Below are positions 4,999-10,239 of a stretch of DNA of 12,349 nt, piece by piece. The notes under the pieces are model-generated. The model made no database searches and had not been told where the DNA came from. It was given only the letters and a program-made list of their open reading frames with translations. How positions within the stretch are numbered: position 1 is the stretch's first letter; each line of letters opens with the position of its first letter. A program made the translations under genes and the position numbers. Source of the DNA: Comamonadaceae bacterium (GTDB lineage: Bacteria > Pseudomonadota > Gammaproteobacteria > Burkholderiales > Burkholderiaceae_C); contig JAJTBK010000489.1 of NCBI GenBank assembly GCA_021286965.1, positions 1 through 12,349 of the forward strand, in the 5' to 3' direction.

Positions 4999-6273
4999 TT
5001 AGAAGCGGTGGCGCAGGCCGACGGTGAAGCCGGTGCGGCTGCGAGCGCCGAATTTGTCGATGGTCATGCCATCGCCGCCGCTGACCTTGGTGTAGTCCAG
5101 GGCAGCGTAAGCATCGGTGCGCTTGGAGAAAGCGTAATCCAGGGCCGTGACGAAGAAGTTGGCATTGCCGTTGTACACGCCGTTGGCCGAGCCCGACTGC
5201 TTGGCGTGGAAGTAATGCGCGCCGGCGTTGATCTGCGGCGTGACCTGGTAGCCAAAGCCGATCTTGAACATCTCGCGCTTGCTGGCGGAGTTGCCGACCT
5301 GGCCTACGTTCTGCGGCTGCAGGGTACCTGAGTCGAAGTCATAGATGGTCGGGCCGGGCATGAAGCCGCCGTTGGTCTGGCCCGACCAGTAGGTGGACAG
5401 CAGCACGGCATCGGCCATGCTCGGCACCGTGGCGTTGAACGGGTTCTTGACCTTGTTCTGGCCGTAGCCGGCGTTCAGGTACAGGGCGCCAACCTTGTAG
5501 GAGCCACCCAGGGTGAAGGCATCGACCTTGGTGCCGCCGGGCAGCTTGAAGTTCATGTAGCCACCGCCGACGGAAATACCGTCCTTGGAGTAGCGCACGA
5601 AGCCGCCATAGTTTTGGATCGGGCCTTGCAACTGGCTCACGAGCTCCTCTTTGGCACCCGGCTTGAGCAGGTCAATCAGGGGCTTGTCCTTGACTTCGTT
5701 GTTTTCACCAAACGAATACTGCAGGCCTGCCGCCAGGCTGCGGTCGGCGTTGGCGATCACGTACTTGAGCGAGTTGCTGGTGCGTGCGCCCATGGCCATG
5801 CCGAGCTCAGGCTTGTAGGCATCCATGTAGGGCGAGTACGGGAACGAGGCGTAGGTGCTGGTCACGACGTCGAACAGCACGTTCCACTGGCGGCCCATGG
5901 TCAGGCGGCCATAGGGGCCTTGCAGGCCGACGTAGGACAGCTGGAAGAAGGGGGCGGGAACGGGCTTGATATCTTTCTCGCCGCTATCGGCGTTGAGGCG
6001 GTGCTCCAGATAGGCCAGGGCCTTGGTGCCCGAGCCCATGTCTTCCTCGATAGTGAATTCAAGGCGGCTTTGCGACATGCCGCCGCCCACCATGCGGTTG
6101 AGGCCGCCTTGATCGGCGCCTTCGTTCGTGGTGTGGCGGTAGGCCACATCGACCACGCCAGAGAGCTGCACCTTGCTGGTATTGGCGGGGGCTGCCGGGG
6201 CAGCAGGCTGGGACTGGGCCAGGGCAGCGCCTGCGCCGCACAGGGCCAGGGCTGCGATGACGGTTTTCTTCAT
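4999..6273 (-). CDS. Gram-negative trimeric porin (first of two)
   Basis: Protein of 424 aa. A signal peptide (MKKTVIAALALCGAGAALA, cleavage before Q20) precedes a short Pro/Ala-rich linker (about residues 21-33), then a beta-barrel of alternating strands beginning KVQLSGVVDVAYR and ending TVGLRHRF. The terminal Phe is the outer-membrane assembly signal. LTMGRQWNVLFD resembles the strand leading into the constriction loop of Burkholderiales porins. It is expected to form a 16-stranded general diffusion channel, as is usual for the family. The ATG at 6273 follows AGAGGAG at 6282-6288 with 8 bases spacing; the longer frame to 6369 is rejected because it precedes the signal peptide. It has its own terminator. 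Its Shine-Dalgarno region (6282-6289) is perfectly complementary to eight bases of the putative small RNA at 8564-8571. It is larger than, and clearly diverged from, the neighbouring porin, so not a recent duplicate. Confidence 0.93.
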   Translation of the reverse strand: MKKTVIAALALCGAGAALAQSQPAAPAAPANTSKVQLSGVVDVAYRHTTNEGADQGGLNRMVGGGMSQSRLEFTIEEDMGSGTKALAYLEHRLNADSGEKDIKPVPAPFFQLSYVGLQGPYGRLTMGRQWNVLFDVVTSTYASFPYSPYMDAYKPELGMAMGARTSNSLKYVIANADRSLAAGLQYSFGENNEVKDKPLIDLLKPGAKEELVSQLQGPIQNYGGFVRYSKDGISVGGGYMNFKLPGGTKVDAFTLGGSYKVGALYLNAGYGQNKVKNPFNATVPSMADAVLLSTYWSGQTNGGFMPGPTIYDFDSGTLQPQNVGQVGNSASKREMFKIGFGYQVTPQINAGAHYFHAKQSGSANGVYNGNANFFVTALDYAFSKRTDAYAALDYTKVSGGDGMTIDKFGARSRTGFTVGLRHRF

Positions 6274-6416
6274 GGAAACGACTCCTCTAGGATGGGCAAA
6301 CCAGCTTTTGCAATAGGACGATCCGGGGGCAGCCCCGAACCCAAAGACAACGGCGTGTAACCGTGGCAACCACCTTGCCTGCCGCTGGGGCGGGCCGCGC
6401 CATCCCTCTTGGGGCT

Positions 6417-6445
6417 GGCAAAGGTGAGGTAACTGCGATTGTCAA
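6417..6445 (-). promoter_or_regulatory. Possible promoter of the first porin
   Basis: On the minus strand a perfect TTGACA (6445-6440) is followed after 17 bases by TTTGCC (6422-6417), a poor -10 hexamer. The location between the preceding terminator and the porin start fits. The weak -10 keeps confidence low; the true -10 could be elsewhere or regulator-dependent. Confidence 0.3.
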
Positions 6446-6507
6446 AAGCCCCTGCACCCCGGGCAAGCACACTGGGCATGGGCACCACAGGCGTTAACCC
6501 TAGGAAA

Positions 6508-6523
6508 TGTCGCCCATGCGACA
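6508..6523. promoter_or_regulatory. Perfect dyad TGTCGC-N4-GCGACA upstream of a porin
   Basis: TGTCGC, CCAT, GCGACA: two perfect 6-base half sites separated by four bases, a spacing common for dimeric regulators. It lies between the upstream porin's terminator and the putative promoter of the next porin, about 235 bases before that start codon. It could be an operator, or a small RNA hairpin; I recognise no specific regulator. Confidence 0.35.
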
Positions 6524-6541
6524 GAGCGTGGCCATGGTGGC

Positions 6542-6571
6542 AAAAAAAAACCGCTGCACGCGGCAGCGGTT
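6542..6571 (-). terminator. Intrinsic terminator of the upstream porin gene
   Basis: On the minus strand AACCGCTGC (6571-6563), loop CGCGT, GCAGCGGTT (6557-6549), running into an uninterrupted run of nine U (6550-6542). It lies about 45 bases past the porin stop at 6615. The plus-strand side has only four T (6570-6573), so activity in the other direction would be weak. Confidence 0.9.
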
Positions 6572-6589
6572 TTCAAGCTTCTTGGCACC

Positions 6590-6607
6590 GGCTGGCTTGC
6601 GCCAGCC
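6590..6607 (-). other. Short hairpin just after the porin stop codon
   Basis: GGCTGGC, TTGC, GCCAGCC forms a perfect 7-bp stem with a 4-base loop, beginning 7 bases past the porin stop and ahead of the true terminator. It has no U-run, so it is not a terminator itself. A 3'-end stabilising hairpin is a reasonable guess. Confidence 0.45.
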
Positions 6608-6614
6608 AGGGTGA

Positions 6615-7706
6615 TTAGAAGGAGTGGGTCACGCCCACTTGCAGGCCGTGCTGGCTGCCGTTGTCCTTCAGGGTACCAGCGGTGCCCAGGGTCAGACCCA
6701 TGTTGGCGCCGTTGTTGTCCTTGTTCTTGATGTAGGCGTAGGTGCCGTACAGCGAGGTGCGCTTGGACATGTTGTACACGTAGCCCAGGCCGAACTGGTC
6801 AGCCTTCAGCTTGTCAGCGTTAACAGCCGTGAACTCATAGCGGTTGTATGCAGCGCGCACCAGGCCAGGGCCGACCGGAGCGGTCACAGCCAGCATGTAG
6901 CCCTTGGTCTTGTCGTCGCCACCAACGCGCTCAGCCTTGGAGTCGCGGTAGCCAGCAACCAGCTTGGCAACGCCGAGGTCGTACGAACCACCCAGGCTCC
7001 AGACGGAGATCTTGCCGGAAGCGGTAGCGTCATCCTTGTTCAGACGCTCCAGACCCAGGCCCAGGCTGATGGGGCCGTTGTCGTACGTAGCGCCCAGGCC
7101 CAGGTATTGGCGGTCGCTGTTGGCACCAGCCACTTCGCCAAAGCCGTAGTTCACACCGACCTTGAAGCCGCTGAAGTTCGGCGACACGTAGGTGATGGCG
7201 TTGCTCACGCGCTGGTTGGTGGTCTTGGCGGTGTTGTATGCGGTCTTGCCGTCATCGGCGACGCCGCCGTTGGCCCACAGGCGCGACTGGGCGATACCGA
7301 CGGAGCCGAACACGTCGTAACGTGCAGTGGCGTTGTAGGCAGCGGTCAGTTCGCGGCCCAGACGCACTTCACCGAAGCCACCTTCCAGGCCCACGGTCGA
7401 CTGGCGCTTGAATGCCAGGCCGTTTGCAGCGTTGGAAACGTCGTAGCCAGAGTTACCCGTGCCATCGTCCAGCAGCAGGCCGGCTTCCAGGCGGAAGTTG
7501 GCCTTCAGGCCGCCACCCAGATCTTCCACGCCACGGAAACCGATACGGCTGGTCATGTTGTTGCCCGAGGTCACGCCGGACCAGTTCTTGTCGCCATTGA
7601 CGTAGGTCACGCCAGCGTCGGCCACGCCGTACAGGGTCACGGAGGATTGGGCCATGGCGGCGCCGGAAGCAGCCAGCACGGCCAGGGCGATCAGGGATTT
7701 TTTCAT
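6615..7706 (-). CDS. Gram-negative trimeric porin (second of two)
   Basis: Protein of 363 aa, the classical length for a Burkholderiales/Neisseria-type porin. The signal peptide MKKSLIALAVLAASGAAMA is cleaved before QSSVTLYGVADAG, the characteristic first strand. GFRGVEDLGGGLKANF and VRLGRELTAAYNATARYD follow, and the chain ends GLQVGVTHSF with the terminal Phe needed for outer-membrane insertion. It should be a general diffusion porin. Codon choice is more restricted and less extreme in G/C than in its neighbours, as expected of an abundantly expressed gene. The ATG at 7706 has GGAG at 7715-7718, 8 bases upstream; the open frame continues to 7961 but that part is not porin-like. The leader carries a strong hairpin (7740-7761) and an upstream dyad (7879-7897). 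A terminator follows at 6542-6571. Confidence 0.95.
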   Translation of the reverse strand: MKKSLIALAVLAASGAAMAQSSVTLYGVADAGVTYVNGDKNWSGVTSGNNMTSRIGFRGVEDLGGGLKANFRLEAGLLLDDGTGNSGYDVSNAANGLAFKRQSTVGLEGGFGEVRLGRELTAAYNATARYDVFGSVGIAQSRLWANGGVADDGKTAYNTAKTTNQRVSNAITYVSPNFSGFKVGVNYGFGEVAGANSDRQYLGLGATYDNGPISLGLGLERLNKDDATASGKISVWSLGGSYDLGVAKLVAGYRDSKAERVGGDDKTKGYMLAVTAPVGPGLVRAAYNRYEFTAVNADKLKADQFGLGYVYNMSKRTSLYGTYAYIKNKDNNGANMGLTLGTAGTLKDNGSQHGLQVGVTHSF

Positions 7707-7739
7707 TGCAGATACTCCAAGGTTTAACAGTGGAACCGG

Positions 7740-7761
7740 TGGCGCTGCGCAAGCAGCGCCA
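7740..7761 (-). promoter_or_regulatory. Strong hairpin in the porin leader
   Basis: TGGCGCTGC, GCAA, GCAGCGCCA is a perfect 9-bp stem with a 4-base loop, ending 33 bases before the porin start codon. It lies between the gene and any plausible promoter, so it should be in the 5' UTR. No U-run follows it. It could stabilise the abundant mRNA or be a regulatory structure. Confidence 0.5.
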
Positions 7762-7878
7762 GGGCACGCCCGACCGATCCCGGCCAACCTCCTGATGGGG
7801 AAGTTGCACCGATTGCACCAGAGCCGGGGGGACAGCGCAAAGAAAATCCCCATCCCGGTGCATGAAACGGCGCATTTC

Positions 7879-7897
7879 GTTGCTGTCGTACAACAAC
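7879..7897. promoter_or_regulatory. Imperfect dyad upstream of the second porin
   Basis: A 19-base sequence, GTTGCTGTCGTACAACAAC, in which 7 of 9 symmetric positions are complementary (outer GTTG/CAAC perfect). It lies about 175 bases upstream of the porin start and downstream of the osmC stop. It is a candidate operator only; I did not find a convincing -35/-10 pair nearby. Confidence 0.3.
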
Positions 7898-7962
7898 CCG
7901 AAGACGCCCTACACCCACGGGTTTTCACGGCCATGACAACGCCGTGACCCCGTGATGACATT

Positions 7963-8412
7963 TCAGGCCGCCACCACCTCGAAACCGGTGGTGATCTGCG
8001 CCGTCTTGCCCAGCATGACGCTGGCCGAGCAGTATTTTTCGTGGCTCAGGGCGATGGCGCGCTCGACGGCGGCATCGGGAATGTGGTGGCCGGTGACGGT
8101 GAAGTGCATGTGGATCTTGGTGAACACCTTGGGTTCGGTCTCGGCACGTTCGGCCGTGAGCTTGACGCTGCAGCCGCGCACGTCGTGGCGGCCCCGGCGC
8201 AGGATCAGCACCACGTCGTACGCGGTGCAGCCGCCGGTGCCGGCGAGCAGCGTCTCCAGCGGGCGCGGCGCCAGGTTCTGCCCGCCCAGGGCGGGTTGCT
8301 GGGCGTCGGGCGCGCCGTCCATGGTGAGCACGTGACCGCTGCCGGTCTCGGCCACAAAGCCCATGCCCGAGCGCGTGCCCAGGCCCCCTGTCCAGTTGAC
8401 GGTGCATTCCAT
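7963..8412 (-). CDS. OsmC/Ohr-family protein
   Basis: Protein of 149 aa, typical for the family. Cys62 in LLAGTGGCTAYDVV and Cys128 in HEKYCSASVML are the two conserved cysteines that reduce organic hydroperoxides in OsmC and Ohr. E53 and R50 in the preceding PRPLET stretch are near the positions expected to polarise the active site. The LALSHEKYCSA-type helix and the KTAQIT tail are closer to the YhfA-like OsmC branch than to Ohr. Likely a cytosolic thiol peroxidase, with lipoyl-dependent recycling known in related proteins; the substrate is not determined. The ATG at 8412 is preceded by GGGAG with 7 bases spacing. It is divergent from the putative small RNA gene, and the 23-base dyad at 8483-8505 could serve both. 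Confidence 0.88.
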   Translation of the reverse strand: MECTVNWTGGLGTRSGMGFVAETGSGHVLTMDGAPDAQQPALGGQNLAPRPLETLLAGTGGCTAYDVVLILRRGRHDVRGCSVKLTAERAETEPKVFTKIHMHFTVTGHHIPDAAVERAIALSHEKYCSASVMLGKTAQITTGFEVVAA

Positions 8413-8482
8413 CGTCTTGCTCCCTGTGGTGAAAAGAGCCCGATTGCAGCAAAAAAACCGGCCCTCTGCCTAGAAGGGTTGC

Positions 8483-8505
8483 ATCATGTTGCACCGCAGC
8501 ATGAT
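8483..8505. promoter_or_regulatory. 23-base dyad overlapping the small RNA promoter
   Basis: ATCATGTTGC, ACC, GCAGCATGAT: half sites match at 9 of 10 positions. The -35 hexamer at 8489-8494 lies inside it, as expected of a repressor operator. It sits between divergent osmC and the small RNA, so it may control either. The regulator is not known. Confidence 0.5.
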
Positions 8506-8516
8506 TGCGCTACAAT
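8489..8516 (+). promoter_or_regulatory. Sigma70-type promoter of the putative small RNA
   Basis: TTGCAC (8489-8494), 16-base spacer, TACAAT (8511-8516): four of six and five of six consensus bases. It is the best promoter in the window. Transcription would start near 8522-8524, just before a folded segment ending in a strong terminator. Confidence 0.7.
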
Positions 8517-8522
8517 CCGCTC

Positions 8523-8615
8523 CATGCAGCGCCCCAGGGCGTTGCGCCCCTTGTCTCCTCCACCTCCTCTAACGGTGGATTCAGCCCCCGGCCTTACGGC
8601 CTGGGGCTTTTTTTT
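8523..8615 (+). ncRNA. Putative small RNA with anti-Shine-Dalgarno-like loop
   Basis: The segment of about 93 nt is bounded by a good promoter and a strong intrinsic terminator, and no gene overlaps it. Predicted by eye: hairpin 1 at 8526-8545 (8 bp, one G-U, loop CCAG), a pyrimidine-rich stretch at 8546-8558, hairpin 2 at 8559-8579 (TCCACC/GGTGGA with the 9-base loop TCCTCTAAC), and a terminator hairpin at 8583-8608 with eight T. CACCTCCT at 8561-8568 equals the 3' end of 16S rRNA that pairs with Shine-Dalgarno sequences, so the RNA could mask ribosome-binding sites. Bases 8564-8571 are perfectly complementary to the ribosome-binding region of the porin at 4999-6273. An alternative is an attenuated leader for ilvA, but no Ile/Val/Leu/Thr-rich leader peptide is seen and a separate -10 follows. 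I know no named family for it. Confidence 0.6.
8583..8615 (+). terminator. Strong intrinsic terminator of the small RNA
   Basis: AGCCCC, one mismatch, GGCC, loop TTAC, GGCC, GGGGCT (8583-8608), followed by an uninterrupted run of eight T (8608-8615). It lies 65 bases before the ilvA start codon on the same strand. Confidence 0.92.
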
Positions 8616-8641
8616 GCCCTGCAGGTGGCGGACGACGGGCC

Positions 8642-8647
8642 TATGAT
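8642..8647 (+). promoter_or_regulatory. Possible -10 element of the ilvA promoter
   Basis: TATGAT, five of six consensus bases, lies between the small RNA terminator and ilvA. No good -35 is present 16-18 bases upstream. If real, the ilvA leader is only about 25-28 bases and is pyrimidine-rich. Confidence 0.35.
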
Positions 8648-8679: not shown

Positions 8680-10239
8680 ATGAGCCAGCCCCTGACCCCC
8701 CTCGACTATCTGAAGAAAATCCTCACCGCCCGCGTGTATGACGTGGCCGTGGAGTCGGCGCTGGAGCCGGCCAAATCGCTGAGCCGGCGCCTGCACAACA
8801 AGGTGCTCTTGAAGCGCGAGGACCAGCAGCCGGTATTCAGTTTCAAGCTGCGCGGGGCCTACAACAAGATGGCGCAGCTGGCACCGGAGCTGCTGCAAAA
8901 GGGGGTGATCTGCGCCTCGGCCGGCAACCACGCCCAGGGCGTGGCCATGAGCGCGCGCAAGCTCGGCGCGCGCGCCGTGATCGTCATGCCGACGACCACG
9001 CCGCAGCTCAAGATCGATGCCGTGCAGGCGCTGGGCGGCGAGGTCGTGCTGGCGGGCGAGAGCTTTACCGACGCCTACCAGCATTCGCTGCAACTACAGC
9101 AGGCGCAGGGGCTGACCTTTGTGCATCCGTTCGACGACCCGGACGTGATCGCCGGCCAGGGCACGATTGCGATGGAAATTTTGCGCCAGCTGCAAAGCCT
9201 GGGCAGCCAGCGGCTCGATGCGGTGTTCGTCGCCATTGGCGGCGGCGGGTTGATTGCCGGCGTGGCCAACTACATCAAGGCGCTGCGCCCGGAGATCAAG
9301 GTGATTGGCGTGCAGATGAACGACTCCAACGCCATGATCCAATCGGTGCGCGCGGGCGAGCGCGTGACGCTCGCTGATGTGGGCTTGTTCTCCGACGGCA
9401 CGGCCGTCAAGCTCGTGGGCGAGGAGACGTTTCGCGTCGCCCAGGGCCTGGTGGACGATTTCATCACCGTCAACACCGACGCCGTGTGCGCGGCGATCAA
9501 GGATATTTTTGTCGATACGCGCAGCATCGTCGAGCCGGCCGGGGCGCTGGCGGTGGCGGCCATCAAGCAGTACGTGGCGCAGCACAAAACCAAGGGCGAA
9601 ACATACGCCGCCATCCTTTGCGGCGCGAACATGAATTTTGACCGCCTGCGCTTCGTCGCCGAGCGCGCCGAGGTGGGCGAGGAGCGCGAGGCGCTGCTGG
9701 CCGTCACCATCCCCGAGGCGCGCGGCAGCTTCAAGCGCTTTTGCCAGCTCATCGGCCAGCTGCCCGGCGGGCCGCGCAACATCACCGAGTTCAACTACCG
9801 CATCGGCGACAGCACGCGCGCGCACGTCTTCGTCGGCATGACGACGCATGGCCGGGGGGAGTCGGAAAAACTCGTCAAAGCCTTTGAGCGCCAGGACTTC
9901 GAGGCCCTGGACCTGACGCACGACGAGCTGGCCAAGGAGCACCTGCGCCACCTGGTGGGCGGGCGCTCGGCGCTGGCGCAGGACGAGCGCCTGCTGCGCT
10001 TTGAGTTCCCCGAGCGCCCGGGGGCGCTGCTCAAGTTCCTGAGCCTGATGGCGCCGGGCTGGAACATCTCGCTGTTTCACTACCGCAACCAGGGCGCGGA
10101 CTATGGCCGCATCCTGATTGGCCTGCAGGTGCCGCCCGAGGACGGCGCCGCCTTCGACGCCTTCCTGGCGCAGTTGGGCTACCCCTACGCCGAAGAGACG
10201 CAGAACCCCGCGTACAAGCTGTTTTTGCAAACAAAATAA
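8680..10239 (+). CDS. ilvA: Threonine ammonia-lyase, biosynthetic
   Basis: Protein of 519 aa, matching the long biosynthetic IlvA (E. coli 514). It deaminates L-threonine to 2-oxobutanoate with PLP, the first committed step to isoleucine. The catalytic domain has K56 in SFKLRGAY (Schiff-base lysine), N83 in SAGNHAQG, the phosphate-binding G187-G-G-G190 and C314 in LCGANMNFDR. The C-terminal part (about 338-505) holds two ACT-like modules, EALLAVTIPEARGSFKRFC and ERLLRFEFPERPGALLKF, where isoleucine inhibits and valine activates in known enzymes. The catabolic TdcB type lacks them. The 25 bases before the ATG are pyrimidine-rich, with no Shine-Dalgarno sequence. The small RNA terminator lies 65 bases upstream, and cobS begins 48 bases after the stop. 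Confidence 0.97.
   Translation: MSQPLTPLDYLKKILTARVYDVAVESALEPAKSLSRRLHNKVLLKREDQQPVFSFKLRGAYNKMAQLAPELLQKGVICASAGNHAQGVAMSARKLGARAVIVMPTTTPQLKIDAVQALGGEVVLAGESFTDAYQHSLQLQQAQGLTFVHPFDDPDVIAGQGTIAMEILRQLQSLGSQRLDAVFVAIGGGGLIAGVANYIKALRPEIKVIGVQMNDSNAMIQSVRAGERVTLADVGLFSDGTAVKLVGEETFRVAQGLVDDFITVNTDAVCAAIKDIFVDTRSIVEPAGALAVAAIKQYVAQHKTKGETYAAILCGANMNFDRLRFVAERAEVGEEREALLAVTIPEARGSFKRFCQLIGQLPGGPRNITEFNYRIGDSTRAHVFVGMTTHGRGESEKLVKAFERQDFEALDLTHDELAKEHLRHLVGGRSALAQDERLLRFEFPERPGALLKFLSLMAPGWNISLFHYRNQGADYGRILIGLQVPPEDGAAFDAFLAQLGYPYAEETQNPAYKLFLQTK

Follow-up and report, generated by a model that had tools for sequence, protein, structure and literature searches.

The small RNA between osmC and ilvA

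The window, a stretch of 12,349 nucleotides from the draft genome of a Comamonadaceae bacterium, encodes an OsmC family protein on the minus strand at 7963–8412 (NF008009, 141.3 bits against a cut-off of 138; PF02566) and ilvA, the gene for threonine ammonia-lyase, on the plus strand at 8680–10239 (TIGR01124, 805.9 bits against a cut-off of 411.3). The initial annotation had placed a small RNA gene in the gap between these divergent neighbours, and the gap itself was borne out by the sequence and by the family models. Beside osmC, the minus strand carries two consecutive genes at 4999–7961 that, from their translations, we take to be porin-like.

The promoter proposed earlier can be read directly from the plus strand as a −35 hexamer TTGCAC (8489–8494), a 16-nt spacer and a −10 hexamer TACAAT (8511–8516), from which transcription would be expected to start at about 8523–8524. 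These positions stand, but the promoter is weak by consensus: TTGCAC agrees with TTGACA at only three of six positions, and a scan requiring 9/12 consensus matches found no promoter. The promoter call is therefore based on its conservation rather than on agreement with the consensus. The −35 hexamer is of the same type as the TTGCAT mapped in the Bordetella S17 promoter, as described in PMC11722255.

The promoter and terminator together predict a primary transcript of ≈93 nt (8523–8615, plus strand). This RNA folds at −45.2 kcal/mol, compared to −29.5 kcal/mol (sd 3.3) for shuffled sequences (z = −4.77), and none of 200 shuffles was equally stable. Three hairpins and a terminator had been described previously. 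All three hairpins fold (8526–8545, 8559–8579 and 8583–8608), but the third is the terminator hairpin itself, part of an intrinsic terminator (8583–8615) that was apparent in sequence, fold and scan and ends in the expected eight T residues (8608–8615). The segment CACCTCCT at 8561–8568, which is presumably identical with the 3′ end of 16S rRNA, had been correctly located, but its CACC lies in the stem of the second hairpin, leaving only UCCUC in the loop. The first hairpin lies in the 5′ leader, upstream of and outside the Rfam model discussed below. When 38 short leaders of relatives were folded singly and without a shuffle control, they also formed a hairpin, with changing sequence. A small ORF starting with the ATG at 8524 was considered and rejected. 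Its frame passes through the terminator, inside an ORF spanning 8041–8646, and leader lengths differ among relatives, so that no coding reading of the RNA is supported.

The single match above a curated cut-off in a cmscan search of the window was RF02278, “Betaproteobacteria toxic sRNA”, at 8552–8614, covering model positions 1–64 of 64 with 65.4 bits (cut-off 50) and an E-value of 1.2e-11. The RNA, which had looked undescribed in the initial annotation, thus belongs to a family that has already been described, and the score above the curated cut-off, together with the conservation, makes the element more than a chance occurrence. The family is represented once in the window's draft genome. 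It was found at E ≤ 0.001 in 45 of 60 genomes, the window's own included, and above the cut-off in 33 of the 60, while no match was found in 14 control genomes. Other candidate families were rejected: RF00519 (MmgR) scored 17.3 bits (cut-off 41), and the matches to suhB/mmgR, ncS037, anti-hemB, Hrs1 and ylbH fell far under their own cut-offs.

We compared 30 members of the RNA family. The C/U-rich, anti-Shine-Dalgarno targeting strand UGUCUCCUCCA (8552–8562 in the window; site 1) is invariant in ten of its eleven columns and nearly so in the first; apart from one base, it and UGGAUU, which closes hairpin 2, are unchanged throughout. The loop of hairpin 2, UCCUCUAAC in the window (hairpin at 8559–8579; site 2), varies in both length and sequence. 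Hairpin 2 shows compensatory changes at its two inner pairs, the terminator stem varies with compensation, and for seven of the 13 predicted pairs there is at least one sequence in which both sides have changed. The window RNA has the double hairpin ending in an intrinsic terminator and the invariant UGUCUCCUCCA. Since UGUCUCCUCCA is invariant whereas the loop is variable, the 5′ strand, corresponding to site 1 of S17, is the conserved working part of the RNA. The emphasis previously placed on the TCCTCTAAC loop is therefore not supported, and the conservation expected in related genomes holds for the promoter box described below, for UGUCUCCUCCA, for the compensated stems and for the terminator, but not for the loop.

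The proposal of a trans-acting repressor of about 93 nt retains its core, in that the RNA is an independently terminated sRNA with C/U-rich anti-Shine-Dalgarno segments, and this mode of action is known in relatives. The published members of RF02278, ncS27 of Burkholderia and S17 of Bordetella, are reported to act at ribosome-binding sites, and discrete RNAs, processing, Hfq involvement and repression at the ribosome-binding site are described for them (PMC5688073, PMC11722255). S17 is cut by RNase E where the conserved region begins, yielding the 67-nt S17S (PMC11722255), and processing of the 92-nt ncS27 of B. cenocepacia can likewise give a short RNA (PMC5688073). By analogy, we would expect the 93-nt primary transcript of the window to be accompanied by a processed form of 65 nt (8551–8615).

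A palindrome over the −35 hexamer

When the upstream sequences were placed side by side, a palindrome, TGYTGC-N3-GCARCA, was apparent over the −35 hexamer, a feature absent from the initial annotation. The form in the window is TGTTGCACCGCAGCA, at 8487–8501, with the core TGC-N3-GCA. A search of the 150 nt preceding the RNA found the palindrome, at one mismatch or less, in 31 of the 34 loci from the bacterial family of the window (19 of them exact), whereas shuffled sequences gave a mean of 0.2 and a maximum of 2. The three misses were L010, which lies at a contig end, L024 and L126. In other families, there was no exact palindrome in 24 loci (L018 and L142 being one place represented twice), and one mismatch was found in five of the 23 distinct places, compared to a shuffle mean of 0.07. 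Most boxes there have 1–3 mismatches, often reading GCACAA or GCACCA, and their spacing varies. The sRNA core pattern occurs in 65 of 399 genomes of the order, and an exact palindrome 36–66 nt from the RNA core in five of the 399, all of them from the window's family.

We also scored these boxes with a matrix built from 47 phasin-promoter sites. The box at 8487 scored 21.3, and the second-best place in the whole window 10.3. Among the matches listed (118 stretches, less L195 and L219, whose upstream sequences are short), 97 of the 116 scored sRNA loci were above the 99% dinucleotide-shuffle level and 19 were below it. The low scorers among these listed matches include Thiobacillus, Thiomonas, Hydrogenophilus, Betaproteobacteria SCN2, two Variovorax records and, of the three records from Bordetella, that of Bordetella genomosp. 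12. Since the sites used for training had been chosen by the consensus that first emerged at the sRNA, the matrix test is independent only in part. Of 124 boxes, 117 were followed by a −10-like hexamer (searched over a range of 5–14 nt with three mismatches or less) and seven were not; in 114 of the 117, the end of the box was 8–11 nt from this hexamer. By its position over the −35 hexamer, the putative operator would be placed to block RNA polymerase.

Two side observations concern RF02278 RNAs with other promoter arrangements. In most rows of L298–L319, which come mostly from the PhaR-less families f15, f29, f44 and f50, a near-palindrome resembling TATTAGATAATTCTAATAA lies over the −10 hexamer, in what looks like an operator swap. 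Genome G042 has nine RF02278 matches, several of them with a weak box or none; these paralogs may be differently wired.

The palindrome closely resembles a known operator. PhbF of H. seropedicae, a PhaR protein and repressor of PHB genes, is reported to recognize the motif TG[N]TGC[N]3GCAA, footprinted on phbF, and to repress phbF and phaP1 fusions (PMC3206438). TGTTGCACCGCAGCA departs from this strict motif only at its final position, where it has GCAG in place of GCAA. The window's own genome contains 13 exact palindromes and genomes G001, G002 and G006 contain 27, 23 and 28, respectively, against 0, 1, 2 and 0 for a backwards control pattern. We inspected these sites and grouped them by downstream gene (13/13 in the window's genome, 7/27 in G001, 20/23 in G002 and 28/28 in G006), with gene names resting on the copies in the window's genome. 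In all four genomes, two exact palindromes 57–58 bp apart lie upstream of phasin, and exact palindromes also precede a GNAT-family gene (with a divergent lipase-like gene in two) and the sRNA, the G001 site of the latter being taken from the full site list. An exact palindrome also precedes DUF485-actP in three of the four (the window's genome, G001 and G002) and an acyl-CoA synthetase gene in two, a count to be read with the seven inspected sites of G001 in mind. Other recurring sites exist, several of them inside coding sequence. In the window's own genome (L052, 1145–1515), a palindrome lies ≈42 nt, measured from its centre to the start codon, before the DUF485 gene, which is followed by an acetate symporter gene, and acetate uptake may thus belong to the same regulon as the sRNA.

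Phasin promoters more widely carry the motif at two mismatches or less in 27 of 30 loci (28 genomes), often twice, and outside the window's family the GCACAA and GCACCA variants are frequent at both phasin and sRNA promoters. The distribution of the box also follows that of PhaR (TIGR01848). Among sRNA-bearing genomes, 50 of the 55 that have PhaR also have the box, as against none of the 24 that lack PhaR. Counted by loci, the contrast was 51/61 to 0/24 (Fisher 1.5e-13, kinship ignored), and counted by families, which roughly allows for descent, it was 8/9 to 0/7 (p = 0.0014). The family counts were made by hand, a family being scored for the box if any of its PhaR-containing genomes has one, and with G330 and G044 treated as separate losses. 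The contrast does not include L010 (37 nt of upstream sequence), the genome of the window itself or nine loci from the same bacterial family for which no PhaR status was available. Among the 24 PhaR-less genomes, G418 may be a chance match to the pattern, and G078 scores 10.7 against the threshold of 10.9.

These results make PhaR the probable regulator of the sRNA promoter, as judged from sequence comparison. A different protein, for example another repressor of carbon metabolism acting at phasin and acetate-uptake promoters, could in principle bind the box of this RF02278 member. A search of the window's own draft (571 contigs totalling 2.73 Mb; completeness 87%) by family model and with the protein of a congener did not find PhaR, R. 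eutropha PhaR is reported to bind quite different sites, unrelated 12-bp repeats (PMC3206438), and five PhaR-containing genomes (G038, G091, G176, G241 and G325) have no scoring box, several of the G042 copies also falling below the threshold. However, G038 and G241 fall just under it, at 8.9 and 9.9 against 10.9, and PhaR is present in all 35 other genomes of the window's family, three congeners included, so that its absence from the draft is likely to be an assembly gap. The near identity to the footprinted PhbF motif, the sharing of the box with phasin promoters and its absence from the PhaR-less genomes all argue against a different protein, which we consider unlikely. Because PhaR was not found in the draft and the gap is likely rather than certain, we do not file the locus as a proven member of the PhaR regulon. 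Upstream of phaR itself, a site with two mismatches or less was present within ≈200 nt of the PhaR motif in five of nine loci (L031, L032, L034, L104 and L105, with one mismatch in L034), which lends weak support to possible autoregulation by this box; no such site was found within that distance and mismatch limit in G002 (L071).

Neighbouring genes and candidate targets

The gene order osmC(−)/sRNA(+)/ilvA(+) is conserved. In the 30 best-scoring loci from the window's genome and the 60-genome search (a selection and not every match), osmC was present in 27, ilvA in 24 and both in 23. A broader count covered 134 distinct places, each side being evaluated where no less than 1.4 kb of flanking sequence was available. 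Of 119 loci evaluable upstream, 96 have a divergent osmC no more than 1.5 kb away, and of 114 evaluable downstream, 63 have ilvA on the strand of the sRNA at up to the same distance. The RNA in five Bordetella/Achromobacter records is preceded by osmC at a distance of 1.0–1.2 kb, which suggests that S17 is the likely positional ortholog of the window RNA.

The closeness of osmC, whose start codon is ≈75 nt from the box, raises the question of whether the palindrome serves this gene and not, or not only, the sRNA. The box is indeed commoner beside osmC: of the 23 loci in which no divergent osmC lies within 1.5 kb, only ten have a box above threshold. However, those ten (L024, L029, L115, L116, L119, L123, L139, L141, L196 and L228) show that the box also occurs where osmC is not close by. 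Furthermore, in four of the five Bordetella/Achromobacter records with a distant osmC, the box adjoins the sRNA, and the spacing between the box and the −10 hexamer of the sRNA is nearly fixed. We therefore regard a role for the palindrome at osmC as very improbable.

Two further features were observed between the box and osmC. A terminator-like hairpin with a T run lies on the minus strand at 8462–8477, perhaps within the osmC leader; by eye, it is similar in the close relatives L005 and L015. At 8444–8451, a half-site, TTGCAGCA, is followed by an A-tract, also seen by eye in L005, L014 and L015, and is a possible second operator half-site.

We considered the start regions of several genes as possible targets of the RNA. 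The phasin start region of the window's genome pairs with the sRNA at −16.6 kcal/mol, with 2% of shuffles as good, and the mean longest match to the targeting strand was 5.0 bases for phasin starts, 4.4 for osmC and 3.1 for ilvA. However, phasin mRNA was rejected as a conserved target, since at least seven contiguous bases were matched in just two of 30 phasin loci (3/108 for osmC and 0/58 for ilvA). The phasin complementarity may only reflect better Shine-Dalgarno sites, and we thus claim no target. For the start regions of ilvA, osmC, yjcH and the GNAT gene, pairing with the sRNA did not go beyond that of shuffles.

An RNA that mimics the 3′ end of 16S rRNA might instead block Shine-Dalgarno sites broadly and act as a global ribosome poison, the idea behind the name “toxic sRNA”. 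According to PMC5688073, the family was named for growth inhibition in E. coli (citing Kimelman 2012), and overexpression of ncS27 slows B. cenocepacia. Yet S17S overexpression is reported to have hurt E. coli growth only modestly, as the cells entered stationary phase, and 92 genes were raised when S17S was absent (PMC11722255), leaving general poisoning a very doubtful account of the RNA. Least credible of all is that the element is a 5′ leader or attenuator of ilvA, with transcripts running through, as the initial annotation had allowed for: ilvA does begin 65 nt downstream on the same strand, but the strong terminator is conserved, 51 of the 114 distinct loci have no same-strand ilvA within 1.5 kb, and relatives are discrete RNAs by Northern blotting or end mapping (PMC5688073, PMC11722255).

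Proposed control of the RNA and comparison with known systems

We conclude, with a probability of roughly 0.7, that the locus encodes an RF02278 sRNA of the ncS27/S17 type, with PhaR controlling its transcription at the palindrome that covers the −35 hexamer. PhaR, a repressor that binds PHB granules, would sit on the palindrome and gate transcription. As PHB accumulated, PhaR would be titrated away and the promoter freed, and the sRNA would be made together with phasin. The primary transcript of ≈93 nt would then be trimmed to ≈65 nt, as in its relatives, and the invariant UGUCUCCUCCA would pair with Shine-Dalgarno regions, aided by Hfq, lowering the translation of targets that, by analogy, should be mostly uptake and catabolic genes. 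Carbon import and catabolism would thereby be throttled once the PHB store is full. The repression and the PHB signal are carried over from work on PhbF and PhaR and are inferred for the sRNA promoter.

The proposed control agrees with two published observations. In glucose medium, ncS03, ncS05 and ncS27 rose 8.0-, 6.9- and 4.3-fold, respectively (PMC5688073, Table 2). The S17 promoter, PS17, was active in vitro with σA polymerase and unaffected by BvgA, and an unnamed repressor was postulated to act in vivo (PMC11722255). The copies in Burkholderia share an upstream motif, for which the main text of PMC5688073 names no owner, calling the switch unknown. We lean, with somewhat less confidence than for the window itself, towards a general arrangement in which the RF02278 sRNAs of PHB-making Burkholderiales would be the RNA arm of the PhaR regulon: once the PHB store was full, an anti-Shine-Dalgarno RNA would shut off carbon uptake at the level of translation. 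The unnamed repressor of S17 and the owner of the Burkholderia upstream motif would then both be PhaR, and lineages without PhaR would have been re-wired to another operator over the −10 hexamer.

What seems to be new here is the reading of the promoter, with its probable PhaR operator, and not the RNA family. No statement linking PhaR to RF02278 sRNAs was found in the literature searched; Sass 2019 (on ncS27), Kimelman 2012 and the supplements lay outside that search and may contain such a link. RNAs of this family slow growth and curb the use of amino acids and sugars, and PhaR control, if true, would explain how they are switched on. It would also link a translational regulator of wide distribution to PHB, the polymer in which carbon is stored, with relevance for hosts used in bioplastic production.

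The closest known systems are the published family members. The ncS03, ncS05, ncS27 and ncS62 RNAs of B. cenocepacia share the RF02278 family, the double hairpin and the C/U-rich strands with the window RNA, but there are four copies in that species (PMC5688073), compared to the one found in the window's draft. S17 of Bordetella pertussis has the targeting strand, a σA promoter with a TTGCAT −35 hexamer and the terminator in common with the window RNA, whereas its leader is ≈123 nt long, compared to ≈28 nt here; it was studied as an RNA of the Bvg+ mode, and PhaR, PHB and phasin do not appear in the main text (PMC11722255). The Neisseria NmsR siblings, set beside the window RNA by description only, have two unpaired C/U-rich stretches complementary to ribosome-binding sites (PMC5688073), but form a tandem pair. 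MmgR of Sinorhizobium meliloti is Hfq-dependent, tied to PHB and reported to be negatively controlled by AniA (PhaR) (PMC8401924), and thus provides a precedent for a PhaR-gated sRNA. It is an alphaproteobacterial RNA of another family (RF00519), unrelated to the window RNA, to which the control proposed here would, if true, be a parallel.
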